From Paludibacteraceae bacterium (lineage in GTDB: Bacteria; Bacteroidota; Bacteroidia; Bacteroidales; Paludibacteraceae), in the NCBI GenBank assembly GCA_017391905.1, contig JAFOWX010000076.1, forward strand, positions 1 through 38,586: DNA of 38,586 nt, written 5' to 3'. Every line of letters starts with the position of its first letter. Position 1 is the stretch's first letter. Below, one piece after another: positions 21,230-28,247 of this stretch. A program made the position numbers and the translations under genes. The notes under the pieces were generated by a model. That model was not told the origin of the DNA. It did not search any database and was given only the letters and a program-made list of their open reading frames with translations.

Positions 21230-21230
<1 letters not shown>

Positions 21231-22750
21231 TGAAACGCATATTCCTATTACTATTTGTTGGTTTGACCACAGCAACTGCTGTGGCTCAAACCATTTTAAC
21301 TATAAACGATACCGAGATAAGCAAACAAGAGTTTGAGTATTATTACAACAAAAATAATCACAACCAAATTCAGCAGGTTTCGGCTACCCAGTACATGGAC
21401 ATGTTTGTTAATTTCAAACTAAAGGTAATGGAAGCCATTGCCAACCAGTACGACACGGTACAAGCATTCAAAGACGAATTGCAAAGCTACCGCAACCAAT
21501 TGGTTGGTCCGTACCTAACCGATACCGTTAAAAGAAACCAATTAGTAGAGGAAGCCTACAAACATTTATTGGAAGATATTGAGGTTAGCCATATTTTGTT
21601 TGCCTATGATTTTCCACACGAGGCGCCTGTGGCTTTAGAAAAAGCACAAAAAGCCCGTAAAAAACTAACAAAATCCAACTTTGCTCAAAAAGCCGTAGAG
21701 TTGTCAGAAGACCCTTCGGTACAATACAACAAAGGTTATTTAGGCTATGCCACGGGCGGAGCATACGTTTATCCTTTTGAAGAAGCTGCATACGCACTAA
21801 AAAAAGGCAAAATAAGCCAACCCGTACGTACCAATTTTGGCTACCACCTTATTTTGTTGCACAATCGTCGTCCCTCTAACGGCGAAGTACGCGTGGCGCA
21901 TATCTTTAAACAAAAACCCCAATACGCAGATTCTGCACAACTTGCAAGCATTAAAACAGAGGTATTCAACCTATACAAACAATTGCAAGAGGGCGCCAAC
22001 TTTGCCGAGATGGCTCAAAACCACTCGGAAGATGGTAGCGCAGCCAAAGGTGGTGAACTACCTTGGCTTAGCTTAGGCGACACCAACCCCTTCTTTGAAG
22101 AAGCCGCCTTTGCACTAAACGCCGAAAGACGTTTAAGCGAACCTGCGGAAGCACCTTATGGTTGGCACATTATTTACTTGTTGGAAAAACGCCCCATTGG
22201 TCCTATCGAAAATTACAAAGCTCAACTTACCAGCCGCGTAACCCAAGACGAGCGCCGCAAAATTATCCAACAAAGTTTTATCGAAAAACTTAAAAAAGAC
22301 TACCATTTCCAAGCAAAAAACAGCAACGACATCATTGCCACTTTTGCAGACAAGAGTTTGACAAAAGCAGATTTAGATGCTTTTTGCCAAACACATCCTC
22401 ACAGCAACGACTCTATTAACGACTTTATCAACTATAGTCTTATTCAGCATGAGAACAGCCAATTAGAAACCAAATACCCCGAATTTGGCCTGCTTATGCA
22501 AGAATACAAAGACGGTATTTTGCTGTTCAATATTTGCAACGACCTAATTTGGAGCAAAGCCAGCAAAGACACCGAAGGACTTAAAGCCTTCTTTGAGGCC
22601 AACAAAGCCGACTATCCGGCAGATTATACCTACAAAAAAGGTCCCGTTGTAAACGACTACCAAACAGTACTTGAAAAACAATGGTTGGATTCTTTGCACA
22701 GCAAATACACCATTACCATTAACCAAGATGTATTAAATAGCATTCAATGA
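21230..22750 (+). CDS. Periplasmic peptidyl-prolyl isomerase with two parvulin domains
   Basis: This 506-residue SurA/PpiD-like protein has a signal peptide (1-19, ending AVAQ). Two PpiC-type domains are visible: the first from about 115 (VSHILFAYD ... GYLGYATGGAYVYPFEEAAYALKKGKISQPVRTNFGYHLI in outline) and the second from about 224 (VRVAHIF ... GGELPWLSLGD ... YGWHIIYLL). The remaining C-terminal part is helical. It probably folds or chaperones outer-membrane proteins in the periplasm. It is translationally coupled to guaB and overlaps the next gene by four bases (ATGA), so it is firmly in the operon. Confidence 0.92.
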
Positions 22751-23601
22751 AATTGATAACACGTTTTCTCCTTGTCCTTGTAATACTTGCAAGCGTAGTT
22801 TCGTGCAAAAAAACATTGCGCGACTTTACGCGAGATGCCATATTAGAGGTTGAAGGAGAAATCTTGTATCAAGACGAAATAGAAGACTACATTCCCAAAG
22901 GGCTATCGGCAAACGATAGTTTGTACTTGGCAGAATCTTACAAACAGCAATGGGCAACCCGCGTATTGCTTTACAAAATAGCCTTTAACAACGTAGGCAA
23001 CAGCGACGAAATAAAAAAACTTACCCAATCGTATCAAAAAGAGCTGATTATCAACCAATACCAACAACAGCTCATTTCCGAAAAATTGGGCAAGGTTTCG
23101 GAAGATTCGTTGCATAGCTACTACGAAAAAAACAAGCACCTGTTTCCATTAGAAGAAACGGTTGTAAAAGGCATCTTTATCCAATTGCCCCTTACCAGTC
23201 CGGATCAAGAAGAGTTAAAAGGTTGGCTGTCTAACACCACCGACGAAAACCTCGAAAACATTATGCGTTACTGCACGCAAAACGCCATTTCGTACCAGTT
23301 CTTTTTAGAGGCATGGAAGCCATACGGCACTATAAACGCACTGATGCCTAATAAAATAGACGAAAATTCGCCCACACTAACCCGTGGCGTGGTTACGCAA
23401 AAAAACGAAGAATATTGCTATTTGCTACGCATTACAGGCAAATGCGATGCCGGCAACCCTCAACCCTACGAAATGATTCAACCTGAGTTACGAAACGTAC
23501 TTAGCAACCAAGAAAAGATACGTTTTATCAACCAATTTCAACAAGAGCTTTACAACCAAGCCCTTAGTTCAGGACGTATCATTTCACACCAAAACCCATA
23601 A
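22747..23601 (+). CDS. SurA-like lipoprotein with degenerate isomerase domain
   Basis: This 284-residue lipoprotein has the lipobox VVSC with lipidation at C20. The helical N-terminal part (about 30-130) resembles the chaperone region of SurA. From about residue 137 the start of a parvulin strand can be recognised (VVKGIFIQLP), but the glycine-rich GGxLG segment and the FGYHII strand of active domains are missing. It probably acts as a chaperone or scaffold rather than an isomerase; this is an inference. It is sandwiched between two active-looking family members and overlaps the first by four bases. Confidence 0.82.
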   Translation: MKLITRFLLVLVILASVVSCKKTLRDFTRDAILEVEGEILYQDEIEDYIPKGLSANDSLYLAESYKQQWATRVLLYKIAFNNVGNSDEIKKLTQSYQKELIINQYQQQLISEKLGKVSEDSLHSYYEKNKHLFPLEETVVKGIFIQLPLTSPDQEELKGWLSNTTDENLENIMRYCTQNAISYQFFLEAWKPYGTINALMPNKIDENSPTLTRGVVTQKNEEYCYLLRITGKCDAGNPQPYEMIQPELRNVLSNQEKIRFINQFQQELYNQALSSGRIISHQNP

Positions 23602-23610
23602 TCACAAACC

Positions 23611-24957
23611 ATGCAAAAATACATTCTTTTGTGTCTGATATGCCTTTGTGGCATTACCTATAGCCAAGCCGAAAATCAAATCATAGACCAGGTTATTTGG
23701 GTTGTAGGCGACGAACCTATTTTACTTTCCGACGTTGAGAACGAAATAACCAGACGCCGCTACGAAAAAGAACCCATAGAGGGAGATCCATATTGCACCA
23801 TTCCCGAGCTTATTGCCATGCAAAAACTGTTTATTGCCCAAGCTAAATTGGACAGTATCAACGTGTCAGAAGGTATGGTAGAACAACAAGTAGATTCTCG
23901 CATCAAATACTTTATCGGACAAATTGGTTCCAAAGAAAAATTAGAAGAGTATTTTAAGAAAAGCATGTCCGAAATTCGCGAAAACATGAGCAACTCGGTT
24001 CGCGACCAGCTATTGGCACAAGAAATGCAACGTAGCATTATCAGCAACATACGCGTTACCCCTGCCGATGTTAAGAATTTCTACAACGAGTTACCCAAAG
24101 ACAGCATCCCCAACATCCCCGAACAAGTAGAAGTTCAAATTATCAGCATATCACCTCGCGTTACATTAGCCGAACAAGAACGCATCAAAAGCCAGCTACG
24201 TGATTTCCGCGAAAAAATAGAATCTGGCGAATACAGTTTTTCCACCCTTGCCATTCTGTATTCCGAAGACAGAGGCAGTGCGCTACAAGGTGGCGAATTG
24301 GGCTTTATGACACGTGGCAAATTAGTACCCGAGTTTGCCAACACCGCCTTTGCCCTTTACGACAAAGAAAAAGTTTCGCGCATCGTAGAAACAGAATTTG
24401 GCTACCACATCATTCAGCTTATTGAGCGTAAAAACGACCAAGTAAACTGTCGCCACATCTTGCTTACCCCAAAAATAGGCTACCCAGAACGTTTGGAAGC
24501 CACTCAAAAATTGGACAGCATTGCGCAAGAAATCAGGAACAACAAAACAACCTTTGCGCAAGAAGCGCTCAACCATTCGGAAGACGAATACTCGTACCAA
24601 AACGACGGTATCATGATTAACATGCAAAACGGAAGCACCAAATTCCAATTGCAAGAACTACCTGCCGAAATTGCCAAAGCCATTTACAACATGGAAGTGG
24701 GCGAAATTTCGCAACCCTTTGCCTACAAAGACGAGAAAAACAAAGAACGCATTGCCATTGTACGCCTTAAAAGCAAAACCAAGGCACACAAAGCGCACCC
24801 CGATACAGACTACCAACTCTTAAAAGAATTGGTTACCAACACCAAAAACAAAGAAGAAATTAAGAGTTGGATAGCCAAAAAACAAAAAGAAACATACATT
24901 TATATCTTACCCGAATACCGCAATTGCACCTTCCAACTCCCCAATTGGGTAAAATAG
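23611..24957 (+). CDS. surA: SurA-type periplasmic chaperone/isomerase
   Basis: This 448-residue protein has a signal peptide (about 1-20) and the SurA order: chaperone N-domain (VDQVIWVVGDEPILLSDVE style, about 23-165), first parvulin domain (about 175-275, with GGELGFMTRGKLVPEFANTAFAL and EFGYHIIQL), second parvulin domain (about 280-390, starting CRHILLTPK) and a C-terminal helix. SurA escorts unfolded barrel proteins to the BAM complex. The second domain is weaker, with NDGIMINMQNG in place of the glycine-rich loop. It starts 9 bases after the lipoprotein and is followed 6 bases later by the OstA-like gene. Confidence 0.93.
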   Translation: MQKYILLCLICLCGITYSQAENQIIDQVIWVVGDEPILLSDVENEITRRRYEKEPIEGDPYCTIPELIAMQKLFIAQAKLDSINVSEGMVEQQVDSRIKYFIGQIGSKEKLEEYFKKSMSEIRENMSNSVRDQLLAQEMQRSIISNIRVTPADVKNFYNELPKDSIPNIPEQVEVQIISISPRVTLAEQERIKSQLRDFREKIESGEYSFSTLAILYSEDRGSALQGGELGFMTRGKLVPEFANTAFALYDKEKVSRIVETEFGYHIIQLIERKNDQVNCRHILLTPKIGYPERLEATQKLDSIAQEIRNNKTTFAQEALNHSEDEYSYQNDGIMINMQNGSTKFQLQELPAEIAKAIYNMEVGEISQPFAYKDEKNKERIAIVRLKSKTKAHKAHPDTDYQLLKELVTNTKNKEEIKSWIAKKQKETYIYILPEYRNCTFQLPNWVK

Positions 24958-24963
24958 CAAACC

Positions 24964-26583
24964 ATGAAACTACGCACGCTCATATTCCTGCTAATAGGTC
25001 TAAGTACATGTTGGGTTTTTGCCCAAAAAACACATATCTACATAGACCACTCAGACAAACTGCTCTTTAACGAGAGCAAGTGGCCTGATTGCCAAATATT
25101 AGTGGGCAACGTACAATTCAGACACGAGAACATGCTCATGTACTGCGACAGTGCGTATTTCTACAACCTGAAAAATTACATCATTGCCACCGGCAATATC
25201 AAAATGAACCAAGCAGACTCGGTTTACGTTTACGGCGATATTCTCTACTACGACGGCAACACCAAATTGGCTCGTTTACGCCACAACGTTCGCATGGAAA
25301 ACAACGAAGCAACCCTATATACAGACTCGTTAAATTTTGACCGAAAAATTAACATGGGTTACTATTTTAATGGCGGACGCATTGTTGACAGCACCAACGT
25401 ATTGGTATCGGTAAATGGCAAATATTACCCCAACAAAGACTTGGCCATTTTCCAAAACCAAGTAGTACTAACCAACCCCGACTTTGTGCTTACCTCGGAC
25501 ACCCTACACTACAACACCAACTCCGACATAGCCACCATATTAGGCCCTTCGGACATTATGTACCAAGACAGCACACACATATACTCCGAAAAAGGATGGT
25601 ACAACACCAAAAGCAACCTATCCGAGTTAACCACCAATTCGTACCTAAACGACTTTGACGGCCACTACATAAAAGCAGACACGCTCTATTACGATTACAA
25701 CAAAAGGTTGGCCGAAGGATTTAGCCACGTTTTGATGCACGATTCGGCGCAACACGTTATCATCACAGGTAATTACGGATGGTATAACGACAGTTGCCGT
25801 TCTGCCTTGGTTACGCAAATACCCACCTTGCTCAATTACAACCAAGAAAATACAGATACACTCTACGTAACCGCCGATACCATGCTGTACGCAGACAACG
25901 ACAGCTTGCATTACATCAAAGCCTATTACAACGTACAATCGTGGCACAAAGACTTTCAAAGTTTATGCGATTCTGCCTACTACAGCAGTGCAGACTCAAC
26001 CCTACGTATGTACGGGGCGCCTATTATGTGGAACGATGACAACCAATTTACCGGTTTGGAAATATACATCCACATGGTAAAACAAGAAATTGACCACATT
26101 ACCTTAGAGCAAAACGGTTTTATCTTCTCGTTAGAAGACAGCACCCTATACAACCAAGTAAGTGGCAAACAAATCATAGGCTATTTTGCAGACCAAAAGC
26201 TATACAAAGCACACGTAATGGGCAATGCACTCTCTGTTTACTTTGTAAAAGAAGACGAAGAACCGGCAGACAGTGCCTATATTGACACCGAAGAAGAGAA
26301 AGAATACATAGGCATAAACCGCGCCGAAAGTAGCGATTTGATGATTTATTTCTCGGACGACAACCGCATCAAACGCCTTGTTATGTCACCGGCTTCCAAT
26401 GGTGTGCTACACACACCCGAAAAAAGGTATCAAACAGACATAACGCGTTTAAATGGCTTTTACAACTACAGTGCCATACGCCCCAAAGATGCGGCAGACA
26501 TCCATACCCCCAAAAACAAAGAAGCCTTGAAAGCCGCACAAGCAGCAGTCAAGGCTCGTAAAAGACGTAAGGCCCTTAATTAA
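24964..26583 (+). CDS. OstA/LptA-like LPS transport protein
   Basis: This 539-residue exported protein has a signal peptide (about 1-21, ending VFAQ). It is built of repeated short beta strands with the OstA pattern (LVGNVQFRHENMLMYCDSAYF, IIATGNIKMNQADSVYVYGD, ARLRHNVRME), like LptA and the LptD N-terminus, at about 30-210 and again at 220-420. It ends in a lysine/arginine-rich tail (KARKRRKALN). These beta-jellyroll proteins bind lipid A and carry LPS across the periplasm. It lacks the LptD barrel. Its position after three SurA-like genes fits an envelope-assembly operon. Its stop overlaps that of the convergent trpB gene. Confidence 0.88.
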   Translation: MKLRTLIFLLIGLSTCWVFAQKTHIYIDHSDKLLFNESKWPDCQILVGNVQFRHENMLMYCDSAYFYNLKNYIIATGNIKMNQADSVYVYGDILYYDGNTKLARLRHNVRMENNEATLYTDSLNFDRKINMGYYFNGGRIVDSTNVLVSVNGKYYPNKDLAIFQNQVVLTNPDFVLTSDTLHYNTNSDIATILGPSDIMYQDSTHIYSEKGWYNTKSNLSELTTNSYLNDFDGHYIKADTLYYDYNKRLAEGFSHVLMHDSAQHVIITGNYGWYNDSCRSALVTQIPTLLNYNQENTDTLYVTADTMLYADNDSLHYIKAYYNVQSWHKDFQSLCDSAYYSSADSTLRMYGAPIMWNDDNQFTGLEIYIHMVKQEIDHITLEQNGFIFSLEDSTLYNQVSGKQIIGYFADQKLYKAHVMGNALSVYFVKEDEEPADSAYIDTEEEKEYIGINRAESSDLMIYFSDDNRIKRLVMSPASNGVLHTPEKRYQTDITRLNGFYNYSAIRPKDAADIHTPKNKEALKAAQAAVKARKRRKALN

Positions 26584-27944
26584 GGTTGCAACGTTTGTAT
26601 TTTAGCAATGCTGTCGTCTATTAAATCTTGAGGCACCTCATAGTTTGTTAGACCACCGTGCAAGTATTTCTCATAAGACATCATATCAATTAAGCCGTGT
26701 CCAGAAAGTTGGAACAAGATAACCTTTTCTTTTCCTTCTTCTTTGGCTTTCAAAGCCTCACGAATAGCCACTGCAATAGCATGCGTTGATTCTGGAGCAG
26801 GAATAATGCCTTCTGCTTGCGAGAACAAGATACCAGCCTTAAAGGTTTCGTCTTGATGTACATCTTGCGCTTCAATGTAGCCGTCTTTTCTTAATTGGCT
26901 AACCACATTACCCGCACCGTGGTATCTCAAGCCCCCGGCATGGATGCTGGCAGGTTGAAACTCATGACCCAACGTGTACATAGGAATAAGCGGTGTATAA
27001 CCTTCTGTATCGCCAAAGTCGTAGCTAAATTTACCACGAGTAAGTTTAGGGCAAGAAGCAGGTTCAGCTGCAATCAGTCTTACATCCTTGCCTTCTGTCA
27101 ATTTATGACGAAGGAATGGGAAAGTAATACCACAGAAGTTAGAGCCACCACCAAAACAAGCAATCACCATATCGGGATAATCGCCAGCTATCTCCATTTG
27201 TTTTTCGGTTTCAAGACCCGAAATAGATTGGTGAATAGCCACATGGTGAAGCACACTTCCCAAGCTGTAGTGTGTGTATTCGTCTTTTAAAGCTTCTTCT
27301 ACCGCCTCAGAGATAGCCATACCTAAGCTACCCGAAGTACCGGGAAACTGTTCGCGCATTTTTCTACCAATAGCCGTAACATCGCTTGGCGAAGCATATA
27401 CTTTCGCTCCGTAGGTATTCATTACCGCCTTACGATAAGGTTTTTGTTCGTAGCTGCATTTTACCATAAATACACGCAAATCCAATCCAAAATGCTTACA
27501 AGCAATACTTAGCGAGCTACCCCATTGTCCAGCACCTGTTTCGGTAGTAAGGTGTTTAATACCTTCTATTTTATTAAAGTATGCTTGTGGAATAGCCGAA
27601 TTTAGCTTATGCGAACCCACTGGAGATACACTCTCGTTTTTAAAGTATATTTTAGCAGGCGTATCCAATGCTTTTTCCAAGCCGGATGCACGAACCAAAG
27701 GGGTAGGACGATATATGCGATACAAGTCGCGCACCTCGTCTGGAATTTCAATCCAACGCTCGGTTGAAAATTCTTGTTTAATCAACTCTTTGGCAAAGAT
27801 AGGTTCCAAGTCTGCCTCTGTAAGAATCTCCTTTGTTTTAGGATTCAAATAGGGCATTGGTTTGGTTTTCATATCTGCCACAATATTATACCAAGATGTT
27901 GGCATCTCGTTTTCTGGCAAAACTATTTTTTTTGTTGTTTTCAT
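26580..27944 (-). CDS. trpB: Tryptophan synthase beta chain, TrpB2 type
   Basis: This 454-residue PLP enzyme makes tryptophan from indole and serine. The PLP lysine is K113 in GSHKLNS, followed by ETGAGQWG (135-142) and the phosphate-binding GGGSN. The long N-terminal region (WYNIVADM...P.LNP) marks the TrpB2 family rather than the TrpA-partnered TrpB1. No trpA or other trp gene is in the window, so it stands alone. TrpB2 enzymes often act without TrpA, for example as indole salvagers. The upstream leader carries a Trp-codon leader peptide and terminator, which strongly suggests control by tryptophan. Its stop shares the TTAATTAA site at 26576-26583 with the OstA gene. Confidence 0.96.
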   Translation of the reverse strand: MKTTKKIVLPENEMPTSWYNIVADMKTKPMPYLNPKTKEILTEADLEPIFAKELIKQEFSTERWIEIPDEVRDLYRIYRPTPLVRASGLEKALDTPAKIYFKNESVSPVGSHKLNSAIPQAYFNKIEGIKHLTTETGAGQWGSSLSIACKHFGLDLRVFMVKCSYEQKPYRKAVMNTYGAKVYASPSDVTAIGRKMREQFPGTSGSLGMAISEAVEEALKDEYTHYSLGSVLHHVAIHQSISGLETEKQMEIAGDYPDMVIACFGGGSNFCGITFPFLRHKLTEGKDVRLIAAEPASCPKLTRGKFSYDFGDTEGYTPLIPMYTLGHEFQPASIHAGGLRYHGAGNVVSQLRKDGYIEAQDVHQDETFKAGILFSQAEGIIPAPESTHAIAVAIREALKAKEEGKEKVILFQLSGHGLIDMMSYEKYLHGGLTNYEVPQDLIDDSIAKIQTLQP

Positions 27945-27980
27945 AGTTGTATGTTTGATTGTTGTTTAATTCTCTTTTGC

Positions 27981-28012
27981 AAAAAAAGCCGCAGGTGGAA
28001 ACCTACGGCTTT
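27981..28012 (-). terminator. Attenuator terminator in the trpB2 leader
   Basis: On the minus strand a 12-bp stem (28012-28001 with 27996-27985, one G-U pair) has a 4-nt loop and is followed by seven U (27987-27981). It sits before the trpB2 ATG and after the leader peptide. The T-run is on the minus-strand side only, so it acts on the trpB2 transcript. Confidence 0.88.
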
Positions 28013-28059
28013 ATATCTTATTATATATAACACTGTCCACCTTTACTGCTTAAAGGCGG
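27993..28059 (-). promoter_or_regulatory. Alternative RNA pairings of the trp attenuator
   Basis: Segment 1 (28059-28051, CCGCCUUUA) pairs with segment 2 (28045-28037, UAAAGGUGG) over 9 bp with one G-U and loop AGCAG. Segment 2 can instead use AGGUGGA (28042-28036) to pair with UCCACCU (27999-27993), which is the loop and the first bases of the terminator's 3' arm. The two folds exclude each other, as in a classical attenuator. Confidence 0.75.
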
Positions 28060-28094
28060 CGCCACCAAAATTTATTTGCTATATATAAATTCAT
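28050..28094 (-). CDS. trp leader peptide MNLYIANKFWWRRL
   Basis: This 14-codon open frame has an ATG at 28094 and a TAA at 28052-28050. Codons 10 and 11 are tandem UGG (28067-28062), a strong enrichment for a rare amino acid in so short a peptide. The stop lies inside the hairpin loop that follows. A ribosome stalled at the Trp codons would cover segment 1 and free segment 2 to disrupt the terminator; a ribosome at the stop would cover segment 2 and allow termination. No Shine-Dalgarno is seen, as is usual here. It was too short for routine gene calling. Confidence 0.85.
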   Translation of the reverse strand: MNLYIANKFWWRRL

Positions 28095-28114
28095 CTTGTG
28101 TTTATTGATTGGCA

Positions 28115-28146
28115 CAAAGGTAATACTAAAATTTATATTTGTGCAA
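28115..28146 (-). promoter_or_regulatory. Promoter of the trp leader-trpB2 transcript
   Basis: On the minus strand: TTG (28146-28144), 21 nt, TACCTTTG (28122-28115). Transcription should start near 28110, about 15 bases before the leader-peptide ATG. A T8-C-A8 tract at 28157-28173 lies just upstream of the -33 site and may act as an UP element. Confidence 0.7.
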
Positions 28147-28191
28147 TAAAACAATATTTTTTTTCAAAAAAAAGTAACACACAGACAACAC

Positions 28192-28224
28192 AAAAAGTTC
28201 GAATCGTTTTACAACAATCCGAAC
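28192..28224 (-). terminator. Terminator after rpmF
   Basis: A 12-bp stem with two wobble pairs (28224-28213 with 28208-28197, loop GTAA) is followed by five U (28196-28192) on the minus strand. It separates rpmF from the trpB2 promoter. Confidence 0.8.
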
Positions 28225-28247
28225 CTTAGTTTTCTATGATAGCATAA

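Follow-up and report, generated by a model that had tools for sequence, protein, structure and literature searches.

Organization of the trpB2 locus

The window analyzed here, a 38,586-nt stretch of DNA from a Paludibacteraceae bacterium, carries on its minus strand a gene for a 454-aa TrpB2 protein (26580–27944, with the ATG at 27944), the sole gene downstream of a compact leader region before a convergent gene is reached. This convergent gene is OstA-like, and its stop abuts that of trpB2; it ends a plus-strand run (21230–26583) that starts with three consecutive genes coding for PPIC-type rotamase domains, the middle one being a weak match. The upstream boundary of the leader region is set by rpmF, which codes for the ribosomal protein L32 (28248–28436, minus strand) and is followed by a terminator of its own, namely a hairpin within 28185–28226 (−15.8 kcal/mol) and a U run. 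The stretch from rpmF to the trpB2 promoter (28146–28230, minus strand) also gave a sub-threshold match to BTnc201, an sRNA of Bacteroides (32.2 bits against 105). We rejected this assignment, as the strong hairpin with its U run reads as the rpmF terminator.

The features between rpmF and trpB2 all lie on the minus strand. The putative promoter (28115–28146) comprises a TTG at 28146–28144, a 21-nt spacer and TACCTTTG at 28122–28115. The last of these fits the TAnnTTTG consensus of Bacteroides promoters, which is accompanied by a TTTG near −33 (PMC7366714), and of 42 related leaders, 26 have a TAnnTTTG element no more than 75 nt from their ATG, compared to 2.2 in shuffled sequences. Downstream lies a leader frame of 14 codons, MNLYIANKFWWRRL (28050–28094), running from an ATG at 28094–28092 to a TAA at 28052–28050 and featuring tandem UGG codons at 28067–28065 and 28064–28062. 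Folding predicts that its end forms the 5′ strand (segment 1; 28051–28059) of a sequestering hairpin, whose 3′ strand (28037–28045) overlaps segment 2, the antiterminator strand AGGUGGA (28036–28042), which begins 19 nt past the last UGG. This hairpin has 9 bp and a stability of −11.6 kcal/mol (z −2.5 relative to shuffles). Segment 2 is in turn complementary over 7 bp to UCCACCU (27993–27999), that is, to the loop and upper 3′ arm of a 12-bp intrinsic terminator (27981–28012; stem 28012–28001 with 27996–27985). The terminator has the loop UUCC, a stability of −18.6 kcal/mol (z −5.6, with 0 of 200 shuffles equaling it) and seven U at 27987–27981, three of them within the stem. The 171-nt leader as a whole folds with a z of −2.9, one of 200 shuffles being equally good. 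A preliminary description of this DNA had given coordinates for the promoter, leader, hairpins, antiterminator and terminator, all of which hold to the base. Its statement that the first hairpin encloses the leader stop needs a small correction: the hairpin stands, but the TAA runs from the last bases of its 5′ strand into its loop.

TrpB2 and the tryptophan metabolism of the host

The 454-aa product contains a PF00291 domain and passes the cut-offs of both TIGR01415 (616.5 against 518.85) and NF009057 (705.5 against 366), whereas the trpB1 model TIGR00263 stays below its own (155.6 against 392.45). By membership under curated cut-offs, it is a TrpB2, and most of its nearest named trpB2 loci come from Paludibacteraceae metagenome-assembled genomes (MAGs). 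The host is represented by a 1.6-Mb MAG that is 91% complete. Profiles for TrpA, TrpC, TrpF and the chorismate-binding (TrpE-type) domain, each positive in 14 of 14 control genomes, found no match in this MAG. With an incomplete MAG, the absence of trpA, trpC, trpE or trpF is soft when taken singly; the four jointly are convincing. Thus, the earlier claim that trpB2 stands alone, with no trp operon, is borne out in this MAG, but it does not extend to the family, in a sample of which trpA is over the cut-off in 70 of 150 genomes; the lone-trpB2 state is therefore a trait of the lineage.

A high affinity for indole and the use of O-phosphoserine as a substrate have been described for TrpB2 enzymes (PMC11917138), and indole salvage has been cited for the TrpB2 of Thermococcus (PMC11085991). 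Given these precedents and the undetected trpA, trpC, trpE and trpF, the window trpB2 likely functions in indole salvage. Elsewhere in the same genome (contig C135, L188:1441–2889), a protein of the tryptophanase/tyrosine phenol-lyase subfamily is encoded next to a gene for an AraC-like regulator; it matches NF009709 with 556 bits (cut-off 285) and passes no equivalog cut-off. If this protein is a tryptophanase, the same cell could liberate indole and capture it again.

Conservation and turnover of the UGG leader

The comparison of Bacteroidales trpB2 upstream regions that the preliminary description had proposed covered 137 loci. In 49 of the 137 regions (42 after the removal of duplicates), a frame opening with ATG contained two or more UGG codons in a row and was followed by a terminator. 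The same architecture preceded only 1 of 335 control ORFs, which were the other ORFs from the same loci after removing trpB2 and frames overlapping it. The single control positive is a UGG-UGG lying within the preceding coding sequence, upstream of what we read as an ahpF-like gene, and was counted as a false positive. Further, at sites chosen solely by a UGG-UGG and a downstream T run, an ATG frame in the right phase was open in 39 of 39 cases, as against 0 and 1 for the other two phases. While the N-terminal residues of related leader peptides vary freely, WW(W) is retained, with R, H or Q as the next residue. In the nearest relative (L159), whose TrpB2 is 99% identical, the start of the leader has moved, giving MAHKFWWRRL, yet the UGG pair, the KFWWRRL stretch, both hairpins and an 8-bp antiterminator are kept. 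These comparisons support a leader function for the predicted frame in trpB2 loci.

Throughout the genus of the window, trpB2 adjoins rpmF. At four loci (L165, L166, L170 and L171), the leader comes directly after the end of the rpmF coding region, with scant room for a promoter; here, transcripts begun at the rpmF unit may run through the attenuator into trpB2. At L163/L002 and L164/L017, where trpB2 also follows rpmF, no UGG leader was found upstream of trpB2. In another genus of the family, L177 and L182 have kept the hairpins and terminator with just one Trp codon; these are natural losses of UGG, and their leaders should be useful as natural mutants. Judged from these relatives, the switch is being re-wired and lost over a short time scale. 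A cobalamin riboswitch (L172:509–713, minus strand; 102 bits) was also observed near a related trpB2 locus.

Covariation and spacing of the antiterminator

MAFFT alignments of 13 and 8 leaders put segment 2 or the terminator of several leaders in the wrong place; therefore, we tested covariation by swapping segments between loci and by hand-aligned 8-mers. In the swaps, scored as the longest complementarity between the stretch following the UGG codons and the terminator, segment 2 paired over a mean of 7.5 bp with its own terminator as against 5.5 bp with those of other loci (0 of 2000 permutations as good). The preference for the own terminator persisted in 18 close relatives (0 of 5000 permutations) and in a subset of 13 leaders (4 of 5000). 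In the eight pairs aligned for the 11 leaders nearest to the window, we observed compensatory changes from U-A to A-U at position 4 and from A-U to G-C at position 7, a result that carries the selection bias of alignment by hand and is secondary to the swap tests. The pairing that the preliminary description had marked out thus co-varies among the relatives.

Its position is likewise constrained. Among 28 strong cases (pairings of at least 7 bp), segment 2 starts 12–20 nt past the last UGG in 25, with a median of 17 nt (17% in shuffles), and contacts the terminator loop in 27 (63% in shuffled segments). Measured from the leader stop, its start is variable, lying deep within the ORF at one extreme and 8 nt past the stop at the other. 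As the start is fixed with respect to UGG and variable with respect to the stop, the anchor of segment 2 is the Trp codons, as expected if it needs a place just beyond a ribosome stalled on UGG. In 26 of the 42 related leaders, upstream sequence sequesters at least half of segment 2. The length of the pairing differs between lineages: 7 bp in the window, 8 bp in L159 and L004, and a weak 5–6 bp in a sister group (L175, L178–L183). That the antiterminator is aimed at the loop and 3′ arm, as first proposed from the window alone, is real and conserved, and constitutes the most distinctive part of the element.

A predicted mechanism and its alternatives

The window features a short leader with clustered Trp codons, an intrinsic terminator ahead of the first gene, and an antiterminator and sequestering hairpin that are mutually exclusive, as indicated by their overlapping pairings and the swap tests. 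The element is hence very probably a transcription attenuator of the ribosome-mediated type, with charged tRNA-Trp as its signal and trpB2 as its target. Attenuation in response to tryptophan starvation, put forward in the preliminary description, is well supported by comparison: by the frame open in 39 of 39 sites, the terminator, the hairpin and the co-varying, spaced antiterminator. In the predicted sequence of events, the RNA would start just downstream of TACCTTTG, and a ribosome would enter the 14-codon leader. With ample Trp, it would clear both UGG codons; either it would then cover part of segment 2 while at the leader stop or, after its release, hairpin 1:2 would lock segment 2, so that the terminator could fold and trpB2 would be left untranscribed. 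When charged tRNA-Trp is scarce, the ribosome would wait on UGG, covering segment 1 to about 28052 and leaving segment 2 (28042–28036) free just past its edge. The free segment would then pair with the emerging loop and upper 3′ arm (27999–27993), blocking nucleation of the terminator, and the polymerase would continue into trpB2, whose product would make Trp from indole and a serine donor.

Prefix folding is consistent with these states. When a ribosome occupies the UGG pair, with masking up to about 28052, the antiterminator is the optimal fold at the point where its target has just emerged; in the ribosome-free case, segment 2 is held by hairpin 1:2; a ribosome at the stop codon of the leader hides three bases of segment 2 and keeps the antiterminator from forming in full. 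With a finished 3′ arm, however, the terminator (−18.6 kcal/mol) is more stable than the antiterminator in all three ribosome states; therefore, the switch must act kinetically, and this is the weakest step of the proposed mechanism. The leader frame with its UGG pair, the predicted terminator and sequestering hairpin, and the co-varying antiterminator with its spacing are established by sequence and comparison; from these we infer the stalling, the termination efficiency and the order of folding, as well as the role in indole salvage.

The same folding result bears on an alternative in which Trp attenuation is real, but the 7-bp pairing of segment 2 with the loop is not the working antiterminator, its part being taken by another fold or by shielding by the ribosome alone. 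The terminator with a complete 3′ arm is optimal even under a stalled ribosome, and a pairing of only 7 bp in the window, still weaker in the sister lineages, would fit such a scenario. However, the swap and shuffle tests, the compensatory changes and the fixed spacing all oppose it, and we regard it as unlikely. A second alternative departs from attenuation by a ribosome altogether: the leader might bind a metabolite or protein, with the UGG frame being incidental. This has been proposed in the form of a riboswitch for the trpB motif RF04312 of Firmicutes and Fusobacteria, a candidate for which classic attenuation was also left possible (Narunsky et al. 2024; PMC11109978). Like the window element, RF04312 comprises a hairpin followed by a terminator, its antiterminator being suggested to lie within the right shoulder of P1, and it sometimes precedes trpB; it also matches the window weakly over the hairpin and terminator. 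Nevertheless, this match reaches just 21.4 bits against a cut-off of 59, and none of 291 Bacteroidales genomes has a hit over the cut-off, leading us to reject RF04312, a Firmicutes/Fusobacteria motif, as the family of this leader. Moreover, an incidental frame would account neither for the UGG codons being in phase with an ATG at every site nor for the anchoring of the antiterminator on these codons instead of the stop; hence, a binding leader appears very improbable. Equally hard to credit is a decayed or chance leader, with a constitutive promoter and an unregulated terminator left over from the rpmF unit: though a few close relatives have no leader and L177 and L182 retain a single Trp codon in theirs, rpmF has a separate hairpin and U run of its own, L159 has kept its peptide end, hairpins and antiterminator in spite of the moved start, and the enrichment before trpB2 and the phase test also speak against it.

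Relationship to known tryptophan attenuators

Contrary to what the preliminary description had supposed, a Trp attenuator is not new to Bacteroidota: RF01692 (Bacteroid-trp, the Bacteroidete tryptophan peptide leader RNA) is already a Trp leader of this phylum, given as a probable cis-regulatory RNA by Weinberg et al. 2010 (PMC2864571). Across 291 Bacteroidales genomes, we found it over the cut-off in 15 and detectable in 42. Both it and the window element combine a short leader ORF bearing two or three consecutive UGG codons, a hairpin after these codons, a terminator and a Trp-making gene. Segment 2 lies at 12–20 nt in 14 of 15 strong RF01692 cases, beginning 17–20 nt past the last UGG in most members examined, and contacts the loop in 14 of 15, mostly together with the 3′ arm. 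In contrast to the window, the RF01692 members that we checked precede trpB1-type or trpE genes: of six downstream genes tested, three code for PALP enzymes of 393–398 aa (the size of trpB1 products) and three for anthranilate synthase component I. Against the RF01692 cut-off of 49 bits, the window scores 23.8 and the same-genus L162 34.0, while the trpB2 leader of a Dysgonomonas (L039) just passes at 49.2, so that control of trpB2 is itself partly covered by the known family. The window element is a divergent relative of Bacteroid-trp, alike in its architecture and predicted working, that scores outside formal Rfam membership.

Some amino-acid attenuators were reportedly predicted in Bacteroidetes/Chlorobi by Vitreschak et al. 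2004. Within the same phylum, leader-peptide attenuators have been suggested upstream of amino-acid biosynthesis operons in Flavobacterium psychrophilum (PMC9723704), the main text of which names no trp or trpB2 case. In the main texts of the open literature, we found no description of the Bacteroid-trp antiterminator or of trpB2 attenuation, nor a trpB2-wide survey, an antiterminator aimed at the loop with such a spacing or a trpB2 that stands alone and is subject to Trp attenuation. With this element, trp attenuation in Bacteroidota reaches past biosynthetic genes to a probable salvage enzyme, in an organism whose trp pathway went undetected, and a shortage of tryptophan would be linked to the consumption of indole from the environment, where it is common in the gut.

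The comparison with the E. coli trpL leader (RF00513) brings out both the shared logic and the difference. Each has a 14-codon leader, tandem UGG codons and the 1:2, 2:3 and 3:4 scheme of pairings, and the spacing from UGG is common to both, although RF00513 itself scores just 14.3 bits on the window (cut-off 41). However, the best complementarity in E. coli, 5 bp at 14 nt past the last UGG, falls in the 5′ arm of the terminator, as opposed to the loop and 3′ arm in the window, and trpL governs the whole trp operon, whereas the window leader precedes a lone trpB2. We somewhat favor the view that the Trp attenuators of Bacteroidales form a distinct variant, in which an antiterminator just outside the UGG-stalled ribosome attacks the loop, along with some of the 3′ or 5′ arm, and blocks nucleation, whereas that of E. 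coli captures the 5′ arm, and which in lineages that lost the trp pathway governs a lone, indole-salvaging trpB2. An antiterminator that is directed at the loop and keeps a nearly constant distance to the Trp codons offers a simple, testable design rule, one that could find leaders missed by the Rfam model and that sets these elements apart from the textbook case of E. coli.
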